Source: Ancylostoma caninum (taxonomy: Eukaryota > Nematoda > Chromadorea > Rhabditida > Ancylostomatidae). From it: a DNA stretch of 64,000 bases. The notes beneath the pieces are model-generated. The model saw nothing but the letters and a program-made list of their open reading frames with translations, ran no database searches and was not told the DNA's origin. Within the stretch, counting starts at the first letter, position 1. Each line of letters opens with the position of its first letter. The position numbers and the translations under genes were made by a program. The stretch is from positions 124,001 through 188,000 of the forward strand of contig JBAJFG010000290.1 in the NCBI GenBank assembly GCA_037903475.1, in the 5' to 3' direction. Of this stretch, positions 48 to 63,823 are shown piece after piece.

Positions 48-936
48 TTTTCAACTCGATATTCCACCGGCCACAGAACATCATGGAATTCGACACCTTT
101 CATTATTATTGTCCATACGTTGTCGCAATAGCGATATGCGAGAAGTTTCTCGGATTTAAACTGTACCTGAAAATGGGGTACATGGAATGCCACTAGCACA
201 ACCGAGAAAAAAGGTGAGAGCGCAGACAGCGGAGTGGGGGCGTGGCCTTTCTCCGCGTCTATGACCACGATTGGAGAAGTAAAAGCAACGATTCATGGCA
301 ACACTTTGTTCTCAAAGGAAAAACGTTCGCGGTATTGTTAGAAAGAAAACTACTCAGAACTCTAAAGGCAAGTTTCTGATCGCATCTGAAACTTGCTCAC
401 TCAAAAGCTTGTTGACAACTTGTCGACAAGGAAGTGTGAGAACAGGTTGTCGACGAGCTTTTGGGCAGGCAACTTAGCGGCAAGGAAGTTCGAAAACAAG
501 TTGTCGACAAGCTTTTGGGCGAGCAAGTTTCAGATGCGACCAGAAACGTGTTTATGAGGCTCTGAGTAGTAAATTCATTTAAGACACCTCATTTAAAAAT
601 TCTTATACTGTGTTGCCCCTCCCCCCCTCCCCCCACATGGGGACCAGTTCTCGCATAAGGGTTGGTCCAATTTTCGAGAAAGTTTCACGTTTCGATTTTT
701 TGTTGTGACGTATATGTTTGAGAAATGTTGAAAAATAATTGGAATTGGTGACTATAATACCTAATGCTCACCTTATTCTTAACCTTGAAAGCCAGTGCCT
801 TGTTTATGTTGGCATCAAAAGCAGCCAGAACTTTCGCTGCTAGCGCCCGGCTAATCATACCTTCTTCGACGAACTCGTCCAGGGTGTGTGTTAGCGCAAC
901 TCCAAGCGTTGTTTCACGGTACATAATGTAGGACAT
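48..936 (-). CDS. gtf-2A2: Transcription initiation factor IIA gamma (small) subunit, 3' end outside window
   Basis: Two coding exons are visible on the minus strand, 936-772 (55 codons, phase 0) and 166-48 (39 codons plus 2 nt); the last exon lies left of the window. The first exon reads MSYIMYRETTLGVAL then a TLDEFVEEG segment and an FDANINKALAFKVKNK helix, which is the N-terminal helical bundle of TFIIA-gamma. The second begins VQFKSEKLLAYRYCDNVWT and runs to VEFHDV, the beta-barrel half that contacts TBP and DNA. The family protein is about 110-120 aa and 94 codons are seen here. It works in the nucleus, stabilising TBP on the TATA box with TFIIA alpha/beta. The start was chosen because an ATTTCAG acceptor lies only 4 nt upstream, as expected for a spliced-leader site. 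The gene symbol is by homology to the worm gene. The 605-nt intron contains a palindromic element (350-569). Confidence 0.93.
350..569. repeat. Palindromic MITE-like element in the TFIIA-gamma intron
   Basis: The left end CTACTCAGA and the right end TCTGAGTAG are inverted copies. The arms stay complementary inward through the AAGTTTCTG/GCATCTGAAACTTGC and TTGTCGACAAGCTTTTG blocks, giving a hairpin of about 220 bp. No coding capacity. Class unknown. Confidence 0.75.
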
Positions 937-940
937 CAAC

Positions 941-947
941 CTGAAAT
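941..947 (-). promoter_or_regulatory. Probable SL trans-splice acceptor of the TFIIA-gamma gene
   Basis: On the minus strand ATTTCAG is followed by GTTG and then the ATG at 936. No upstream exon is evident, so a spliced leader is the likely partner. A cis-spliced 5' UTR exon cannot be excluded. Confidence 0.6.
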
Positions 948-1734
948 GTGCAACAGATCGCTTAAGGAAGTTCCTCCACATGTCCGTCACCGTAGTTCGC
1001 TACGGGACGCAAGCGGAGGGCATGAACTGAGTGAAATAAAAAAAAATAGTGAATCACAGGAAATTCACCGAAGAAACCGAGATTCAAGGGGAAAGAATAG
1101 GTGGACAAGGATCTCAGTGGTATAAGAACCTCCCTTTTCCACGGCTTCCACGTTGGCAACGTTGCTGGTGTGGCAGTTCATGCTTGGACACGATTGAACA
1201 CGTATGGAAAACGAACGTTACCTATAATATAATCGAAAGTTGTAATTAATACAATTGATATAAAAGTGGGCGTGGTTCAGAACAAGTATTCATTTATTGA
1301 ATAGGCTAAAATAGCTGTTAAAATTCTAACTGCATGAAATCACAAATAAATTACGATAAAATGGAAACAAATAACAATATAAGAAATAAATCCGCTTTTC
1401 TCGGCTTTCCATATGTCGCGGCCGGCAGTCCAGTTGCTGTTTATACTTTGGCGCGAGATGATAATGTGGCGACGACAGCAGCAAGGACGTATGGAGATGG
1501 CGTCGCTTTATTCAGTATCTGGCAAGTTTGCCTCGCATGTAATGTCTACAAAATCATCGCATCGCGCGTGCTAGCCGGACTCGTCTATTGCGTGATTTCT
1601 GATGGCGGAGTATAAACAGCACACGGCGGCAATCCGCGTTGTCAACTACAGTAACTACAGTAAAGCATGGTAGGTACAGTCGCAAGTAATTACAGTGCTG
1701 TATCAAAGGGTAATTTATATGTACTAGTCAGACG

Positions 1735-20373: not shown

Positions 20374-23300
20374 TCACTTCCGAAGATCCTTGAAAAACAC
20401 CATTACGCCCTCATTGCCGTCAAACATATCGAGTTTATAGTTCGGTCTACTGATGCAGGTGTAGCCGTGTTTCGTCAATAGCCTCTGATTGGCTAGTGAT
20501 GACGCTTCGGAAGTTATGCCGTGGATGCCTTGTTTCTGGAAGAGATGACATAAAAGACTATGAAGAAGCTAACAAGTAGTAAAAAATAGTGGAAAACAGC
20601 ACCTTCAAGTCCTCGAAGTTGAGTCCAAGATGGACTAGATGATTTGCGATGCCTTTTCGTTGATGCTGCGGAACCACATACGTGATTTCACGTCGAATCA
20701 CCTTCGTCACCGCGGGATCCACCAGTTTCCAGAATTTTCCTTTCGATTCGTCCAATATTTCACCTTAAATTGTCCATTTTCTATGAGACAAGGATCCAGT
20801 GACTGCAACTCACACAGTCGCACTGCTCCTGGCTCGGTAGGTTCGACGAATGGGAGGGGTTCTATGTCTAGGGTGTGATCTCTGTGTCCAATAGATAGGA
20901 GACGAAAGCCTATGATTTTGTTCGAGCCCTAAAATGGGTGAATCAGTGGTGGAGATAGTCTATATTAGTTGCGTGCACTTGTAGGTAACACAATGGACGA
21001 GTTTTCGTGCAAAGTCGTGATTGGCGCCGTGCTTGGAGAGGATTGTGTGGCCGAGCTCTGCGACTGGCCGGTTAGATGAAGTGACCAATCACGAGGCTCG
21101 GCCTCGCGCGCTTTCTAGGTACAATGCTCCAGACTTCGAGTTAGATCATGGTAGCCTAGAAAGCTGCTGATCCCGCCCTTTTCCCAGGAAAGACAGTTCA
21201 GCTTTGGTTCGCTAAGGTGATAAAGCGATTTAGGGCACCATGTGAACTCCACGTTTGGCTGTTTTTTCCCGTATTCGAAAAAAAACGGCCTAACGCTACG
21301 CGCGCGGATGGGAAGTGCCCGTAGACGCTCCACAAATTCCGCCCAGTTTTCTAGCAATACAGCAGAACTGTAATTTCGCGCAGCATTTATTTGCCTTACC
21401 CACTTCTCAGTATCCTTGCTGGTTTCTGTTCTGGTATTTCTATCAACTTTTTGAATGATTGTGTTGGCAGAAGTGTCACTAAGTACTCATTGATAGTCTT
21501 TCGTTCCCGGTGCTGAACTTTACATGAATTATTTTCTGATGATAGATAGAGGTTACCTTCTCATGTATCCGGTAAGAGTAAGGATAATGCAGAGCCTTGG
21601 CAGCGATATACTCGAACAGTGCTCTGGAGCCTTGTGGTGTCAGCTTGAGAGCCTGAAAGTTGGTCATGCATGCCGATGGTTTTGTTCCGAAGACGTTCAG
21701 CAGAGTGTAGAGCGGTATACCTGACAGGAAGCATGGCCGACACCTGTGACTGGCCGCGCCTTCCACCTGCTCCCGCCCAGAAACACATCTCGTATGCCAA
21801 CGACACAAAATCACACAATTAGGACGGTGCGACTATTATGTGTTCTGTAAGTTTGCGTCGTTGACGTACAATATGTGATTTTTTTGGCGGAAGGAGGCGG
21901 GAGATCTCGTCAATCTTATGGTCTATCTCGCTCCGGGCCAATTATATGTATATTATATTTATGTAGGGTGCCGCTTCGCACCCTACAGTCGGGTCCGGCA
22001 GCCACTGCAAATGGGCGCTGGCGGGCGCCGGCCGTCGCCACCCTCCGGCACCCCGGTATTAATGAGCTATAAATCACTCGAGCTTGGGAGAAAGCGAAGA
22101 AAAACACAATTTTAGTCCATGGTAGACAGAGTGCAGTGGATATGTTAAGGCTATAAAGCAGAGGACCATTTTCACAACTTTCACGTTTTTTTCATTTTTG
22201 TGATTTTCATGGGGAAACATTTCTGAATACACAATAAGCGAAGTCGACTCTTCCATTTTCTTTTATAGTACACTGCTTCGCGAATACAAAAATGGCCGTT
22301 ATTTTTCTATAGATGGACACAGTACTTCAGTTATCCCATCTGAATAATAAAGCTCATCCAATTCGGGATCCTCAGAAATAATTGAAATCCGTATAAAATG
22401 TTCCATATCCATTGCGAAGTAGTTCTACCGCTGTCATTTATCTTTCGTGGAGCAGTCCTTTACGGCGCAGTTACTCTCACCCGGTTTCCCTCAACTTTGA
22501 AAAAGTGGTTTTCACTATTACTTACACTATTACTATTACTTACACTTACACTTATCGTAGTTTGTCTTCGAAATTTATGCAAAACGTTGCCGGATGCCTT
22601 CCTGGACTACCCGAAGGAGATCACGGGGGACGTTCCAAGCAGTGAACCCCAAACACTGCGATACTTAACTCTGGATCTCCAACGGAGTGGAACCAGCGAT
22701 AGGGACAGATTGCAATCTGCCGCTCAAACCACTGAGCCATCCGGGCTACTTTTTATGCTGGAGTTTGTTAGATAACTGCAGCAGTCGTAGGCAGCATACT
22801 ATATGTATTTGCAAAACGGGGGCACAGGTCAGGATTCGATCCCCTGACCACCACAACGTCGATCATTCGCTCAATCCACTGAGCTATGCGCGCACGCGAT
22901 GCAAGGTACAAATGGTGTCCACTATTACTTACACTTACACTTATCGTAGTTTATCTTAGAAATTTAGGTGAAAAGGGAGTTGGGTGGGGCCACTTCTGTG
23001 AAGCCTAAGCCTAAGCCTTAAACCCATTCTTAAGCATAGGGTTAGGCTTATCTAACCTAGTGAAAATGATCAGTAATGCAGTATTCCTACATCTATGCCC
23101 ACTACATGAAATAATTAGTATTTTTGAAATTCGAAAGGACTATTAGCAAGTGTAAAAAGTAGTAATAGAACACAAATTTTCAGAATTGACGAAATAGATA
23201 GAAGTTAATTTGGTCGATAAATGGGTGGATGTAGAAGCAGGATATACAACTATGAGGGAATCCTGATAGGCGAAACTGAAATTCTCTTGACACTGATTAG

Positions 23301-25348: not shown

Positions 25349-27064
25349 CAGTCGGATCCGGCCGCCACTGCAAATGGGCGCCGGCGGGCGCCGGCCGCCG
25401 CCACCCTCCGGCGCCCCGGTATTAATGAGCTACAAATCACTCGAGCTTGAGAGAAAGCGAACAAAAATATGTATAAGTTTAGTCCAGAGTAGACAGAGTG
25501 TGGATATGTTAAGGCTATAAAGCAGGGGACCATTTTCACAACTTTCACGTTTTTTCTTTTTGTGATTTTCATGGGGAAAGATTTCTGAATACACAATAAG
25601 CGAAGCCAACTCTTTCATTTTCTGCTATAGTACACTGCTTCGCGAATACAAAAATGGCCGTTATTCTTCTATAGATGGACACAGTACTTCAGTTATCCCA
25701 TCTGAATAATAAAGCTCATCCAATTCGGGATCCTCAGAAATAATTGAAATCCGTATAAATTGTTCCATATCCATTGCGAAGTAGTTCTACTGCTGTCATT
25801 TATCTTTCGTGGAGCAGTCCTTTACGGCGGAGTTACTCTCTCCCGGTTTCCCTCAACTTTGAAAAAGTGGTTTTTCACTATTACTTACACTATTACTATT
25901 ACTTACACTTACACTTATCGTAGTTTATCTTCGAAATTTATGCAAAACGTTGCCGGATGCCTTCCTGGACTACCCGAAGGAGATCACGGGGGACGTTCCA
26001 AGCAGTGAACCCCAAACACTGCGATACTTAACTCTGGATCTCCAACGGAGTGGAACCAGCGATAGGGACAGATTGCAATCTGCCACTCAAACCACTGAGC
26101 CATCCGGGCTACTTTTTATGTTGGAGTTTGTTAGATAACTGCAGCAGTCGTAGGCAGCATACTATATGTATTTGCAAAACGGGGGCACAGGGCAGGATTC
26201 GATCCCCTGACCACCACAACGTCGATCATTCGCTCAACCCACTGAGCTATGCGCGCACGCGATGCAACATACAAATAGTGTCCAATCTTACTTACACTTA
26301 CACTTATCGTAGTTTATCTTAGAAATTTAGGTGAAAAGGGAGTTGGGTGGGGCCACTCCTGTGAAGCCTAAGCCTAAGCCTTAAACCCATTCTTAAGCAT
26401 AGGGTTAGGAAGGCATCCGGCAACGTTTTGCATAAATTTCGAAGATAAACTACGATAAGTGTAATGTGTAAGTAATAGTAATAGTGTAAGTAATAGTAAT
26501 AGTGTAAGTAATAGTGAAAAACCACTTTTTCAAAGTTGAGGGAAACCGGGAGAGAGTAACTCCGCTGTAAAGGACTGCTCTACGAAAGATAAATGACAGC
26601 GGTAGAACTACTTTGCAATGGATATGGAACAATTTATACGGATTTCAATTATTTCTGAGGATCCCGAATTGGATGAGCTTTATTTTAATTTTATTTTATT
26701 TATTCAGATAGGATAACTGAAGTACTGTGTCCATCTATAGAAGAATAACGGCCCTTTTTGTATTCGCGAAGCAGTGTACTATAGCAGAAAATGGAAGAGT
26801 TGGCTTCGCTCATCGTGTATTCAGAAATCTTTCCCCATGAAAAACACAAAAATGAAAAAAAAAACGTGAAAGTTGTGAAAATGGTCCCCTGCTTTACAGC
26901 CTTAACATATCCACTGCACTCTGTCTACTATGGACTAAAATTGTATTTTTCTTCGCTTTCTCCCAAGCTCGAGTGATTTATAGCTCATTAATACCGGAGC
27001 GCCGGAGGGTGGCGGCGGCCGGCGCCCGCCGGCGCCCATTTGCAGTGGCTGCCGAACCCGACTA
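25349..27064. mobile_element. Complete 1.7-kb composite foldback element with tRNA-like core
   Basis: TA flanks; the left end CAGTCGGATCCGGCCGCC and right end GGCTGCCGAACCCGACTA are inverted. Arms of about 600-650 bp (25349-25960 and 26408-27064) are reverse complements throughout, including GGCGCCGGCGGGCGCC, ACTCGAGCTTG and ATTCGGGATCCTCAGAA. Between them lies the tRNA-like dimer (about 25900-26340, inverse orientation). TA duplication and CAGTC ends suggest mobilisation by a Tc1/mariner-type transposase; no transposase is encoded. Confidence 0.82.
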
Positions 27065-34654: not shown

Positions 34655-37600
34655 TTAACGGGACAATCTTGGCCACTGCTTAATGCGTAGGGCGCAAAGG
34701 ATGATGGAGAACAAATTCAAGACAACTGAAACAATTTCTCCGTCGATGTAGGGACGAGTTATCTGAGGGATTCCAAACAAATTTTGTGGGACGGCAAACG
34801 TGTATGGCCAAAAGGCATTTTTTTCTGATCTTCTGATTTCTTTTTCTGATGATTGTGATAATTCACCATTTACACTATCTTACGTTCTATGGACATGAAA
34901 AGCACATTTCGCATGACGCACCGTGTGCATCACGTAACCACATGGGGATGAAAGAGCGTGATGCACCATGTGCATCACGTTGTCGACGTGCTAATACTTA
35001 TTCTCAATTGTTTATTGGGGTGTAGAATTATGGATACGCGCTGCGTTCTTTTGACCACTGCCCGCAGGTACTGCTTTGTCGAAATGGAGAACTGTGAGCT
35101 TTTAAAGTACTCACCTACGAAAATGACAACGACAATTGACAAAACAACAATGGTCAGTCCTATCTTGAACTGCCAAACGCACTCCAGAAAATTCTCCCTG
35201 CCGTAATGTTGACCGATATGCCGGATTCTGCAACAAAGGAAATAGCGGAGGTGAGATCCTGAATAATTCTACAGAAAACTAAGAACAAAACTCTAAGGTA
35301 TCAGGCTTCAATGCCATTTCCCCTAAAGATATAACAACAAAGTTTCAACTACAGTTGAAACACTATGAATTCAAATCAGCAAATGAATTATGAGCTTTTC
35401 AGTTGAGCTAATATCAATATTTACTTCATCATTGGTTCAATTTGCAGCAAGGCCACGCCCACAAGTGAGAAACTCACCTTTCTGGGTCATAGTCGGCAAT
35501 TATGCAAAAGACACCATGTTTGTGACACCACTCCTTAGTACCAATAGTTGTATAGTCACTAGAATATCGATTATATAAAAAGAGGGAGATGGAAAACTAC
35601 ACAGATTTAAGTTGGAAGGAATACGAGGAGGTAGTTAAAATATTAATTATACAGTCCGGTCCAGCAGCCACTGCAAATGGGCGCCGGCGGGCGCCGGCCG
35701 CCGCCACCCTCGGGCGCCCCGATAATAATGAGCTATAAACCACTCGAGCTTGGGAGAAAGCGAAGAAAAATACAATTTTTGTCCATAGTAGACAGGGTAA
35801 ATGAGCCCAACCCTATGCTTAAGAATGGGTTTAAGGCTTAGGCTTAGGCTTCACAGGAGTGGCCCCACCCAACTCCCTTTTCACCTAAATTTCTAAGATA
35901 AACTACGGTAAGTGTAAGTGTAATGTAATAGTGGACACCACTTGTATGTTGCATCGCGTGCGCGCATAGCTCAGTGGGTTGGGCGAATGATCGACGTTGT
36001 GGGGGTCAGGGGATCTAATCCTGCCCTGTGCGCCCGTTTTGCAAATACTTATAGTATGCTGCCTACTGCTGCTGCAGTTATCTAACAAACTCCAGCATAA
36101 AAAGTAGCCCGGATGGCTCAGTGGTTTGAGCGGCAGATTGCAATCTGTCCCTATCGCTGGTTCCACTCCGTTGGAGATCCAGAGTTAAGTATCGCAGTGT
36201 TTGGGGTTCACTGCTTGGAACGTCCCCCGTGATCTCCTTTGGGTAGTCCAGGAAGGCATCCGGCAACGTTTTGCATAAATTTCGAAGATAAACTACGACA
36301 AGTGTAAATGTAAGTAATAGTGAAAAGCCAATTTTTCAAAGTTGAGGGAAACCGGGAGAGAGTAACTCCGCCGTAAAGGACTGCTCCACGAAAGGTAAAT
36401 GACAGCGGTAGAACTACTTCGCAATGGATATGGAACAATTTATACGGATTTCAATTATTTCTGAGGATCCCGAATTGGATGAGCTTTATTATTCAGATGG
36501 AATAACTGAAGTAGTGTGTCCATCTATAGAAGAATAACGGCCATTTTTGTATTTGCGAAGCCATGTACTAAAGCAGAAAATGGAAGAGTTGGCTTCGCTT
36601 ATTGTGTATTCAGAAATCTTTCCCCATGAAAATCACAAAAATGAAAAGACGTGAAATTTGTGAAAATGGTCCCCTGCTTTATAGCCTTAAAATGTCCACT
36701 GCACTCTGTCTACTATGGACTAAAATCGTATTTTTCTTCGCTTTCTCCCAAGCTCGAGTGATTTATAGCTCATTAATACCGGGGCGCCGGAGGGTGGCGG
36801 CGGCCGGCGCCCACTGGTGCCCATTTGCAGTGGCTGCCGGACCCGACTGTAATAATAAACAGCTAATAAAATTATTTAGAAAGTAATAGCGCAAATAAAC
36901 AATGAAAGACAAACTAACTCAAGATTTCCATTCGTTTTATAAAGTAATTTCAGAAATTCGGTAAACCACGGCGGAAGGACCACCGTTTAACGACCTATCA
37001 TGAGCATGACCCTTTACTACCGCCATCCGCGCTCTTCAACATAGGGCAATATACTGTATCGACTTCTCAGTGGAGACAACCAATCAGGACACAAACCCGA
37101 AGTCACGCCCTTACTCTGTCGTCTGCACTCTCACCTCTTTTGCTCACTACCGCATAGGTGGGGAACAAGTCTCGTGCACCAATTGTTAACTCACATTACA
37201 GAAATCACCGCACTCGCTGTACCTACAGCTATCGCTATCGCAGACATGAACACATGAGCGAAGAGAACGACGTCGTGACCAATAATCGCTGCGATTATAC
37301 CAACCTGAAAGGTTCAGTGGAAGAGACGTAAAGGATGGGTAGAGAAGCGGAGCACTCACTAGTGAATTCACCAAACAGAAACAAGGCATCCATATGTTTG
37401 TATAGTATGAGCAGTAGAAACCTCCAGTGTAAAGTTCGCACGAAACACCGCCATATAGGAGAAGGCCTGAACTTGGACATACCGTAATTTTACAGTACGT
37501 GCAGTAGAAAATTGTACAGTATCCCAACAAAAAGCTGAGCCTAAGGAGAAGGCAAAAATTATTGTGGACATCTCACTTCTGTGCTTCGGTTCATTTAAGA

Positions 37601-54891: not shown

Positions 54892-57318
54892 ATGGCTATG
54901 GCTCACAGGATACTGAGCATAGTTTTTGCTATAATATGGTGTGGTTCTCTCTACTATGATGTCGCCTATCAGCCACGACTCGGCCATGACTGGTATATTT
55001 ACAAGCTGGTCATGCTTACTAATTTGAATTTTGTGGGTTTTTAATTCTTTTTTTTTTAATTCTCAAGCGACGTCTCCTTGTGTGTGTCGGTTGTCCCTGG
55101 GTCAGAATGACGGGAATAGAGCGCCAGTTATGGCCACCGATCCTAGGATGTGAATGTAAGAGAGAGAAGTGAAACTGTCAATAATGGTTCACAAGAAATT
55201 GCAAGAGGAAAGTTGTGGCAATATTTTTTTGTTACTTTAGTATTCTAAAAGTACATTTATGTGCAGTTGCACAATTTCGCTCCGATAGGGTGTTCTTGCA
55301 ATTTTTCACTGACTTTTCAAGATAAATTTGTGTTATTTTCTGTGAGGAGAAGTTCAGGATGTACAATCTAATGACATTTGTAATGCTTGCGTCGCTCTGT
55401 CGCGATTGGTCCCAGCATAGTGGGCGGAGCATATCCGCGGAGCTATCATGTTTGCTCCTAACAACAGAGACATAGAGACGTGGTGAAATATAAACTCTCG
55501 CATAGATACTAACATAAATCCAATGTTAGCCTGAAGCAAGGTTGAGTATCCTATTCTCCCTGTTTTTTATGACTACAAATTATTGATTTTTTTTCAGGTG
55601 ATCATCACGATCTTTGCTGTGTTCGCGTTAGCAGAGGTCTTATCAATTGCCGACAATCATCTGAAGCCATTCCTGGATTTTTCGTTCTACTGCACGATAT
55701 TCCCCGTCGCAGTGGTTGGTTTTTTTCCAAGGACCATTTTTATGTGCGATTGCCGCCGCGATTCCGTCGCGATTTAGCTGTTTTTGATGGTTGTGGCTTT
55801 TTTATTTAAAATAATACTATTTAAAGAATATTTTTCTCCCGCGACTTCTCCAAAAAATTGCGATATTGTGCGTCGCGATGGTATCGCAGCGATGAGGCAA
55901 TCGCGGCGGCATCGCGATTCCTGAGTTAACAACACGTTCCTCTGCTTTGATCATTCTTTCTGTTTGCTCTTGTACACTCATTTTATCTGCTTTATTCCAT
56001 ATGTTATCGCTCCATATTTTATCTTTCTTTTCTAATCGATATATTGATTGACTTTATTGCTGCCAAAAAAGCGGTGCGTATCATTCAAATTTCTGTTCTT
56101 CGAAATGATGAGGAAAAATAGGGAGATACAGTGTTGAGTTGAAAGAAGGGTCTCTTCTATTATTACATCTGTGCATTTTGTTTTTATTTCGCTTATAATA
56201 GCTTTGTTTTTCCCTCAACCAATCACCATCTTGCACTGGCCACGCCCCTTTTCAGACCACTTGCGCTCTATTCTGGGGACTGTACGCCATCGATCCGGAG
56301 CTGGTGATGCCTGAATGGGTGGCCAGATTGATCCCATCGTGGTTAAATCACGTCACTCACACATTACCAGTAATTTACGTGGTTTTTGATCTACTAACAG
56401 CCAAAAGAAGTCCTCCATCGCATCGGAAATCGTTGACTATGGCAGCGTTACATGTTTTCATCTACTTTATTATGTGAGTAAGCTCCATTTCACCCCGTGT
56501 TATTTTTTCAGTTTTTTTTTCGAGTTTTTGATTTATTTCCTCGATCGTCTTCACAATTAAGAATCATCGCCGTTCGAGTAATTGACGGCTACTGGTTGTA
56601 TCCGCTGTTGGAGCTGCTCTCACTACAGGCATTGGCAGCCATGTTCGTCGTAGCCATACTGGGATACTATGGCCTCATAAGGCTTGCGGCAATTTTGTCC
56701 AAATTTGGCTATGGTAAGTTAAGAACACCGTTTGGTAGGGTTACAGTCCATATCAGTTGTCTGGCTGTGGGCGGAGTTTATTGACAGGGGCAAGGAATGT
56801 CCCTAGTACAGAATTTTGTGTAATTCTGGAGGGTAGGCATGGATACTATTATTTAAACATTAATCTGTGTAATGTGTTCACAAAAGTCCCTCTGTTGAGT
56901 GTTGTACCGAAAAGGGCGGTGATGCAAAGGTCTGCGATTGGTCATCTCATCTAACTGGCCAATCACAGATCTTGGCCGCATCGCTTTTGGCAGAAACAAT
57001 GCTGCACCTTTCATGCTCCACCAATTAGGTAGAAACGATAAACAAAAGCGTTTTACATAAGATTTGTCCAACAATTGTGCACCGTTCAGCACTAAGTAAG
57101 AGCGCAGACATTGAAGTAGGGGTGTGGCACCTTAGAACTCATGGTTTTGTGATTGGCTGAGAAAATATCACATGCAATGCGCGTGGAGAAGCCGGCAGAA
57201 AGCCATATTAGTAAAGTGACGCTTACGTAAGTATAAATGTTACATTACTATGCAAATTATTGATTTTTCAGGTATCCAGGAGCCAATGAAATCAAAGCGA
57301 TCCCGTAAGGTCGACTGA
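54892..57318 (+). CDS. AIG1/ADTRP-family integral membrane hydrolase
   Basis: Five exons: 54892-55032, 55598-55714, 56256-56473, 56562-56713, 57272-57318; 224 aa, phases closed. Five to six hydrophobic segments (ILSIVFAIIWC; VIITIFAVFALAEVL; CTIFPVAVTTCALFWG; LPVIYVVFDLL; AALHVFIYFIII; FVVAILGYYGLI) fit the FAR-17a/AIG1-like family. The proposed threonine nucleophile is T43 in KLVMLTNLNF, the same number as in human AIG1, and a catalytic histidine is present in LNHVTHTLP (H118 or H121). Human members hydrolyse fatty acid esters of hydroxy fatty acids in the endoplasmic reticulum and plasma membrane; the same reaction here is inference. Basic C-terminus KSKRSRK. Introns contain an ATTGG/CCAAT hairpin near 56935-56970. 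Confidence 0.9.
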
Positions 57319-62262: not shown

Positions 62263-62631
62263 ACACAACGACCCAACTCGCCCAGGGTGTGCCTCAAAGA
62301 CAGGAAATTTTCTGTCCCAGAAATAGGGTGATCCTGCCCTCGGTGCCCTCTTATCATTCGTCAAAACTATGTTCACAGTTGTCCATTTTTATTTGGAATC
62401 TTGAGCGCGTGCCAAGTCGTGCAAGGACAAATCAATCAATACCAAGGACAAATCAAACAGGTGGTGATTTTCATGGTTACCAAGTGTCGATATGAGGGTC
62501 TGATCCTGTTTCCTTAGGGGTGGTTATTTGGCATACTAGATAATATAATAATATCTTCATTTTTTACTGTTACTTAAAGGTCAGATAGGGCACAGATTGG
62601 ATATGTTGCTTCGCGAGGGTTTTCAAGACGT

Positions 62632-62965
62632 GCGCGCATAGCTTAGTGGGTTGAGCGAATGATCGACGTTGCGGCGGTCAGGGGATCGAATCCTGGTCTG
62701 TACCCACGTTTTGCAAATACATATAGTATGCTGCTTACGGCTGCTGCAGTTATATAAGAAACACCTACATAAAAAGTAGCCCGGATGGCTCAGTGGTTTG
62801 AGCGGCAGATTGCAATCTGTCCCTATCGCTGGTTCCACTCCGTTGTAGATCCAGAGTTAAGTATCGCAGTGTTTGGGGTTCACTGCTTGGAACGTCCCCC
62901 GTGATCTCCTTCGGGTAGTCCAGGAAGGCATCCGGCAACGTTTTGCACAAATTTCTGAGATAAAT
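62632..62965 (+). mobile_element. Solitary dimeric tRNA-derived SINE
   Basis: Unit 1 from 62632: TAGCTTAGTGGGTTGAGC (box A) and GGATCGAATCC (box B). Unit 2 from 62777: TGGCTCAGTGGTTTGAGC (box A), CAGATTGCAATCTG arm, GGTTCCACTCC (box B). A tRNA-unrelated tail follows, ending GGCATCCGGCAACGTTTTGC. The same arrangement forms the core of the three foldback elements, but here foldback arms are absent. Confidence 0.75.
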
Positions 62966-63823
62966 CATAGAAATTTGTAGGGGAAATTGTGCGCTTTTAC
63001 CGGAAAGCTCAAAAGCTGAGTGTGGAGAGGCTAAGGTTAAGCTCCACCGATGATGGAGGAATATTTCTCTAAACGAGAGAGAATTAAATATTGAATATGG
63101 ATGGACAGTAGAACCAAGAACCACAAGAAAAAAAAGAGAAACAGCGAATGGAAGGTCCCTAACTTCCTTGGAACCCTTTCTTGGTAACACTGTTCTCCCA
63201 GACGCACACATAATTTTTCTACGTAATTTTTCTACCGTATCACATGAATTACATCTATCAAAGAGAAAGGCGGCAGAGCAAGAACGGTAAAGAATGCACA
63301 GCAACCGATGAAAGGTGATATATGAAGGAATAAATCTTGTGTAGTACACTGCTTGGATAACAACACGCTCTCGCATGCTCACTGGTCTGCAAATGCACCA
63401 TTCTTTCGTAAAACTTGTGAGTTTTCAGAGAAACGAGGAAATATAAGCTAAAGATAATGGGTGATCTCGTTCCTTCCCGGGTACGACCCTCTGTATCCTT
63501 GGAAAGCATGATCGTCAAGAAAAGAATTGAAAAAACTTCAAAAACCTGGTAAAATTTTAGGGGTGTTTAACATTGATGCATTTTCCATATTCAGTTCTGT
63601 AACCAAACCTTTTTAAGAATTGAAATATAGCCGAAATATTGACCGAATTTTTTGCTACATAGGTACCACCTTTTTTTCCCAAAAAGAAGCCGTTCCACAG
63701 ATAAAATACCATTGTCGAGACGACAATTCCCAAGAAGGGTGTAACCTCTCCGAGCCGTTGAAGTGGAATAGTTTTCCGGGGAAAATTATGTACATTTATG
63801 TTGAACGATCGGGTGACAAATGG

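Follow-up and report, generated by a model that had tools for sequence, protein, structure and literature searches.

A family of short, TA-flanked MITEs in the nematode Ancylostoma caninum carries two consecutive tRNA-like units as a regular part, and a segment the size of one predicted Pol III transcript, that of the second unit, is poor in variation among the copies. The explanation we favour, at a probability of roughly 60%, is that such a MITE captured part of a tandemly repeated tRNA dimer, that the composite then spread as one unit, that its copies exchanged parts, and that the transcript of unit 2 has changed slowly, with constraint on this transcript as the leading reading. The transcript-sized, variation-poor segment on unit 2 is new, and the papers listed by literature searches included neither a description of such constancy nor a nematode element of this make-up.

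The window analysed is a stretch of 64,000 nucleotides (contig JBAJFG010000290.1, positions 124,001 to 188,000). A sequence-only reading of it had described three copies of one element with TA flanks, CAGTC ends and two units each bearing a box A and a box B, and this description was confirmed: the sites are those given in that reading, the copies align with one another at 93-96%, and the boxes depart from the consensus by at most two mismatches. Copy 3 (35652-36849, + strand, with TA at 35650-35651 and 36850-36851) represents the usual full-length element, and the order of its parts recurs in most of the genome loci retrieved. From left to right on the + strand it comprises a terminal inverted repeat (TIR) of 147 bp (35652-35798); a gap of 7 bp; a stretch that we call B (35806-35932), made of its own part of ~80 bp and then a ~46-bp direct repeat of the 3' end of the module (35886-35932); tRNA-like unit 1 (35957-36040; box A 35967-35978, box B 36011-36021, terminal TTTT); a linker (36041-36097); unit 2 with its tail up to a T4 run (36098-36272; box A 36114-36125, box B 36159-36169, TTTT 36269-36272), which is the predicted Pol III transcript; a unique inner part of 394 bp (36309-36702); and the right TIR, again 147 bp (36703-36849). 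Within the B stretch, TTAGGC-like repeats (window 35806-35880) adjoin the module; TTAGGC is the nematode telomere repeat.

The usual copy is thus ~1.2 kb long and asymmetric, with a short arm on one side of the module and the 394-bp unique part plus arm on the other. The inverted repeats noticed at first sight are present, but the repeat shared by the two ends is only 147 bp and the module lies off-centre. Likewise, the label of foldback element applies to copy 2 (25349-27064, module on the - strand), and not to the family, as the inner part is found on both strands in only 3 of 68 sampled elements, a count that could miss a few since 20 of the stretches are only 1.3 kb long. One end of copy 2 reads GACTA. 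Its second arm repeats tail end, inner part and TIR in inverted orientation, attached to B; the same junction occurs at loci L036 and L050, and the long second arm is a derived inverted duplication. Copy 1 (21986-23058, module on the - strand) is the copy reported as lacking an arm: it stops at the B side, and its short-side TIR is missing. A fourth copy of the module, absent from the first reading, lies at 62629-62964 (+ strand) and consists of units 1 and 2 without arms. Tc6 of C. elegans is a palindromic transposon with Tc1-like ends, a TA target and long inverted repeats, and is not known to contain a tRNA-like module; both it and the present family are TA-targeting nematode elements, but most of the copies sampled here are not long palindromes.

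No transposase gene was found in the three window copies; the only frame of at least 150 amino acids that overlaps them has 158 aa. Elsewhere in the window, a Pfam scan of 95 of the 116 frames of at least 85 aa matched an exon-like ORF at 688-999 (- strand) to the TFIIA gamma N-terminal domain (E 5e-17), and other ORFs to AIG1-like, HMG box, mucin/nidogen/VWD and Band 7 domains. A hairpin at 56910-56992 (+ strand) aligns with the full length of the mir-43_2 model (27.9 bits, E 0.029, gathering threshold 90) and contains AUCACAG, the seed of the miR-2 group; judged by its sequence, it is a possible microRNA gene.

Genome-wide, the 30-mer at the TIR end was found with up to three mismatches at 762 forward and 766 reverse sites in the 348-Mb genome, that is 1,528 ends against none for the reversed control, and half of this number would place composite insertions at very roughly 700-800 sites. 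For closer study, 70 stretches were retrieved, corresponding to 72 of 100 listed exact 30-mer matches (28 were not retrieved) and to 68 distinct elements, L025 and L037 being left out as second ends of elements already sampled. Selection by an exact 30-mer makes this sample lean towards younger copies and young right parts. All 68 elements contain the tRNA-like module, and the gap between the short arm and B is 7 bp in 48 of the 51 junctions that could be read (17 of the 68 are unreadable in this way). In the 35 two-ended elements, drawn from L009-L058 and measuring 1,071-1,660 bp, TA stands at both ends in 32, where the sampled end has TA by choice of the pattern and all three exceptions fall at the other end; CAGTC...GACTG ends are present in 31.

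These counts bear directly on how module and element came together. The existence of armless copies could suggest that a widespread SINE had nested independently in one copy after another of an equally widespread MITE; the single junction shared by 48 of 51 readable elements refutes this for the sampled elements and leaves the idea a negligible probability. The proposal of the sequence-only reading that a Tc1/mariner-type MITE captured the module and was amplified jointly with it is, in contrast, well supported by the presence of the module in every sampled element and by the consistency of the core junction in this exact-end sample. The pattern that this reading had named as refuting it, with arm-only and core-only copies each common and the junction differing from copy to copy, did not appear in the sample.

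The units themselves are recognised by their promoter elements. Both have a box A and a box B spaced 32-33 bp apart, and all eight units of the window, from the three arm-bearing copies and the armless one, contain at most two mismatches in total. Box pairs of this quality occurred 0 times in 30 first-order Markov simulations of 64 kb; at up to three mismatches, 0.7 pairs are expected per simulated 64 kb, and the window has two such chance-like matches elsewhere. Neither unit is called as a tRNA by ARAGORN or by the Rfam tRNA models, which rules out functional tRNA genes, and the units are therefore tRNA-like by promoter boxes and spacing only. The tail hairpin weakly resembles RAGATH-11 (window 36165-36233 and 62837-62905, + strand; 27 bits against a gathering threshold of 79.4; E 0.018 and 0.0057), with the long identical strings GUUUGGGGUUC and GAACGUCCC, a likeness that could point to a broader family of RNAs. 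Scanning viral contigs for a motif gave 0 matches, and one literature search likewise gave 0. A protein search with the module produced two hits, both to an antisense reading of unit 2 and its tail: a 1-kb ENA contig (P0001, 90%) and Ancylostoma ceylanicum (P0002, 37 of 76 positions), the only named one. Judging by these matches, some version of unit 2 seems to be present outside this genome as well.

Where did the module come from? The tail 41-mer has 1,199 matches at up to three mismatches across the genome. Among 30 loci with an exact match, 28 lie inside elements, and two (L081 and L086) have no arms within ~1.5 kb on each side. In one genome stretch outside the TIR sampling, 100 exact tail 41-mers were found compared with 44 exact inner-part 41-mers; an exact tail 41-mer lies no more than 450 bp away from 40 of the 44 inner sites, while the converse applies to only 40 of the 100 tails, a figure also lowered by tandem units and deletions. 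Tandem modules at about 389 bp are present in at least five of the 68 elements (L019, L041, L100, L101 and L105), spacings of 387-390 bp recur at several places, and one place has four tail matches spaced 388-390 bp. L109 is a tandem array without arms (within its 1.3 kb), and its downstream flank matches that of the armless window copy (62960-63071, + strand) at 82% over 112 bp. Judged from these sequences, the armless copies, the armless array and the tandem spacing of 387-390 bp point to a module that was captured rather than native to the element.

An opposite reading holds that the tRNA-like units are original to the transposon, which would use Pol III transcription of its own centre, the armless copies being remnants. 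The module in all 68 sampled elements and its tandem expansion inside at least five of them would be in keeping with such an origin, but an armless tandem array besides armless single copies argues against it, as does the fact that known Tc1/mariner movement needs only transposase and TIRs; we regard it as quite improbable. As for the term SINE that had been applied to the module, box A and box B at tRNA spacing and the existence of armless copies speak for it, but none of the four armless copies examined (window 62629, L081, L086 and L109) shows a clean retroposon insertion. Three of these four involve a tandem array, adjoining direct repeats or a common flank; at L081, direct repeats lie on both sides of one unit when inspected by eye. 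On this sequence evidence, the free form of the module resembles a tandem or longer repeat more than it does a cleanly inserted SINE. In the L109 array, at ~1130-1240, a small insert with inverted ends GCATGCATCA.../...TGATGCATGC was noted by eye at the start of the unit 2 of one array unit.

Under the favoured explanation, a non-autonomous, TA-targeting Tc1/mariner-like MITE with 147-bp inverted repeats would have taken up more than one unit of a ~389-bp repeat, each unit of this source consisting of two tRNA-like units, so that the captured part slightly exceeded one repeat unit. This capture probably happened once. The composite would then have been amplified as a unit, presumably by cut-and-paste movement with a Tc1/mariner-type transposase supplied from elsewhere.

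Several known systems share parts of this arrangement. Dimeric tRNA-type SINEs have two tandem tRNA-like units with A and B boxes at tRNA spacing, and they resemble the present module in these tandem units, although the latter is mobile as cargo of a DNA transposon. Cassandra TRIM retrotransposons carry a 5S-type Pol III promoter in their LTR; they and the present family are both mobile elements with a Pol III promoter as a constant part, but Cassandra is an LTR retrotransposon with a 5S-type promoter and no TIRs. A published parallel is MER6/MER6A, a mammalian Tc1/mariner MITE that holds a V-SINE fragment and is described by Luchetti et al. (2019, PMC6887750) as having a SINE body and tail without the tRNA-related head, 24-bp TIRs, and least divergent copies more than 12% from the consensus. 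MER6 resembles the present family as a short, non-coding, TA-flanked TIR element with a fixed piece of a tRNA-SINE and hundreds of copies, and as in a composite of this kind most copies here hold the SINE part at one and the same junction (68/68; 48/51). The present family differs from this description in its two tRNA-like units with good A and B boxes, its 147-bp TIRs, its sampled copies only ~1.5-3% from the majority outside unit 2, and its variation-poor, transcript-sized segment. The statement that no family of this make-up had been described is accordingly too strong as regards the kind of element: a SINE-in-MITE composite is already known in MER6 (PMC6887750), old and headless, and the present family is a young one with promoter boxes.

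Variants are distributed unevenly along the element. In a resampling of 60 end-sampled elements, unit 2 with its tail has 0.25 variant types per column (0.18-0.33); the corresponding values are 1.03 for unit 1 and the linker, 1.00 for B, 0.71 for the inner part and 0.65 immediately past the T4 run. A fit of two change points to 67 elements delimits a segment at module positions 144-310 (support 137-146 and 267-319, so that the right boundary is soft), with a gain of 39 log units against at most 9.2 in 60 permutations. In copy 3 the segment, as placed by change-point, profile and resampling analyses, extends over about 36100-36266 (+ strand). Copies covering less than 85-90% of a segment were left out of its counts; the divergence, transition/transversion, left/right and resampling analyses excluded every element in which a full module or inner part occurs more than once; and L005, from the same array as L004, was left out of some counts. 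Transcription by Pol III begins some 10-20 nt ahead of box A and stops at T runs. Since box A of unit 2 is at module position 158 and its TTTT at 313-316, the segment poor in variants has the same extent as the ~170-nt transcript predicted for this unit. For the alternative raised in the sequence-only reading, an element that would use Pol III transcription in its life cycle, this coincidence is indirect support. Unit 1, whose boxes are equally good, shows no depletion of variants.

What kind of process would keep this segment constant? Variants seen once and those seen more than once are depleted alike in unit 2 (odds ratios 0.31 and 0.35), which rules out selection growing with the age of a variant, as recurrent variants should then be depleted more strongly. 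When 48 variants are set against the predicted fold, 14 break a pair, 13 keep one and 21 are unpaired, and the folding stability is unremarkable (z -1.75, -0.66 and -0.95); a constraint on RNA structure is therefore not seen. Two positions in the D-arm region, 171 and 175, are commonly polymorphic within unit 2 (45:7:5 and 37:21, respectively); in the predicted fold, the T/C alternatives at 175 would keep a pair (G-U or G-C), and the variants at 171 would break one.

These two sites affect the relation of unit 2 to its flanks. With them included, unit 2 and tail diverge by 0.54-1.04% in every tercile of either side. Divergence of unit 2 was positively correlated with that of B (0.43) and of the inner halves (0.32 and 0.39). 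With the two sites excluded, the terciles give 0.10, 0.47 and 0.70% for unit 2 and tail compared with 0.34, 1.72 and 3.05% for the inner part; rho is 0.47 with the inner part (p 4e-5) and 0.16 with the left part, and the regression slopes are 0.19 and 0.02, respectively. The idea that unit 2 is constant at any age of its flanks is thus rejected, as sites 171 and 175 had masked the trend with the inner part. Unit 2 has a history in common with the right part, its rate of change being about one fifth of that of the inner part. Such slow change fits selection, a lower mutation input or a mixture of the two, while steady overwriting would be expected to blur the trend.

Homogenisation, in which gene conversion among dispersed copies, perhaps aided by transcription, overwrites the segment, is for this reason a rival and no longer the leading reading. 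It draws on the armless sequences and on the mosaic nature of the elements. Adjacent units of L109 differ at 3 of 135 positions in unit 1 and linker versus 18 of 160 in unit 2 and tail; the middle one has the majority type of unit 2 and tail (1/169 from the family majority), its neighbour stands 19/160 from the majority, and the alternative tail type has two exact copies in the genome, both inside this array. The armless window copy differs from the majority at 2 of 169 positions in unit 2 and tail against 13 of 141 in unit 1 and linker. However, without sites 171 and 175 the segment tracks the divergence of the inner part, which overwriting should blur, and L081 and L086 had been selected by an exact 41-mer within the tail of unit 2. 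Homogenisation is on balance doubtful as the cause.

A locally lower mutation input without selection, for example through protection or repair tied to Pol III factors, is to be considered unlikely to a similar degree. The equal depletion of single and recurrent variants and the rise of unit 2 in proportion to the inner part are what it would predict, but armless copies keep a near-majority unit 2 despite a strongly diverged unit 1, and transcription is generally regarded as raising the mutation rate of tRNA genes. The constancy could also have been produced by assembly or polishing, if short reads mapping to a 170-bp repeat with almost identical copies had been made to conform to the majority sequence, an effect strongest where copies are already most alike. 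We consider this rather unlikely, as sites 171 and 175 are still polymorphic inside the segment, a unit with 18 differences survives beside a majority-type unit in L109, and the discordance of left and right parts would go unexplained. Constraint on the predicted ~170-nt Pol III transcript may be what slows change in unit 2, and it is the leading reading.

The discordance just mentioned is a further property of the family. How far an element has diverged in its left part (B, unit 1 and linker) bears no relation to its divergence in the inner part (rho -0.01, n=69), whereas one age per element would give a rho of 0.51±0.06, and the observed value was reached in 0 of 2000 trials; in a control comparison, divergence in one half of the inner part goes with that in the other (rho 0.54). 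This lack of relation suggests exchange between copies. Individual loci have the same appearance: L017 has 0 differences in 504 bp of its right side and 12 in its left part; in L076 the counts are 2 for left TIR, B, unit 1 and linker taken together, 4 for unit 2 and tail, and 16 for the right side; and the middle unit of L109 combines its neighbour's unit 1 and linker with a family-majority unit 2 and tail. Exchange between copies explains these three patterns jointly. Segments inside the left part correlate poorly with each other and linkage between shared variants is near zero everywhere, so that exchange is not pinned to one breakpoint. The end sample also favours young right parts; in 18 elements sampled by the tail or by T2, left and right TIR divergence is similar (2.51 and 2.17%). 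In the favoured explanation, the left (B, unit 1, linker) and right (unit 2, tail, inner part) portions would have acquired separate histories in this manner, possibly through repair of excision breaks from other copies.

Left and right parts also differ in the kind of private variant, with transition/transversion ratios of 0.61-0.96 in left TIR, B, and unit 1 with linker compared with 1.38-1.51 in right TIR and inner part. This excess of transversions on the left arises although the left and right TIRs have nearly the same sequence, in a sample taken by an exact TIR end. Since no single substitution class dominates among the left-part variants, an origin of these by RNA editing or by cytosine deamination was rejected.

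We tentatively entertain a further possibility, itself unlikely, that the element requires the RNA that Pol III would make from it. A copy with a damaged unit-2 transcript would then spread less, and in the DNA-transposon family as well as in its armless relatives the transcript alone would be conserved; in a bolder form, the RNA or a cDNA made from it would serve as template when unit 2 is restored in copies elsewhere in the genome. The family is young and has many members, and in it a DNA transposon has amplified a Pol III unit whose promoter boxes are intact; over a thousand dispersed copies of one predicted transcript adjoin non-transcribed sequence of the same element. This setting allows direct tests of what causes the constancy, be it constraint, mutation input or exchange, and of how frequently transposon copies trade parts.
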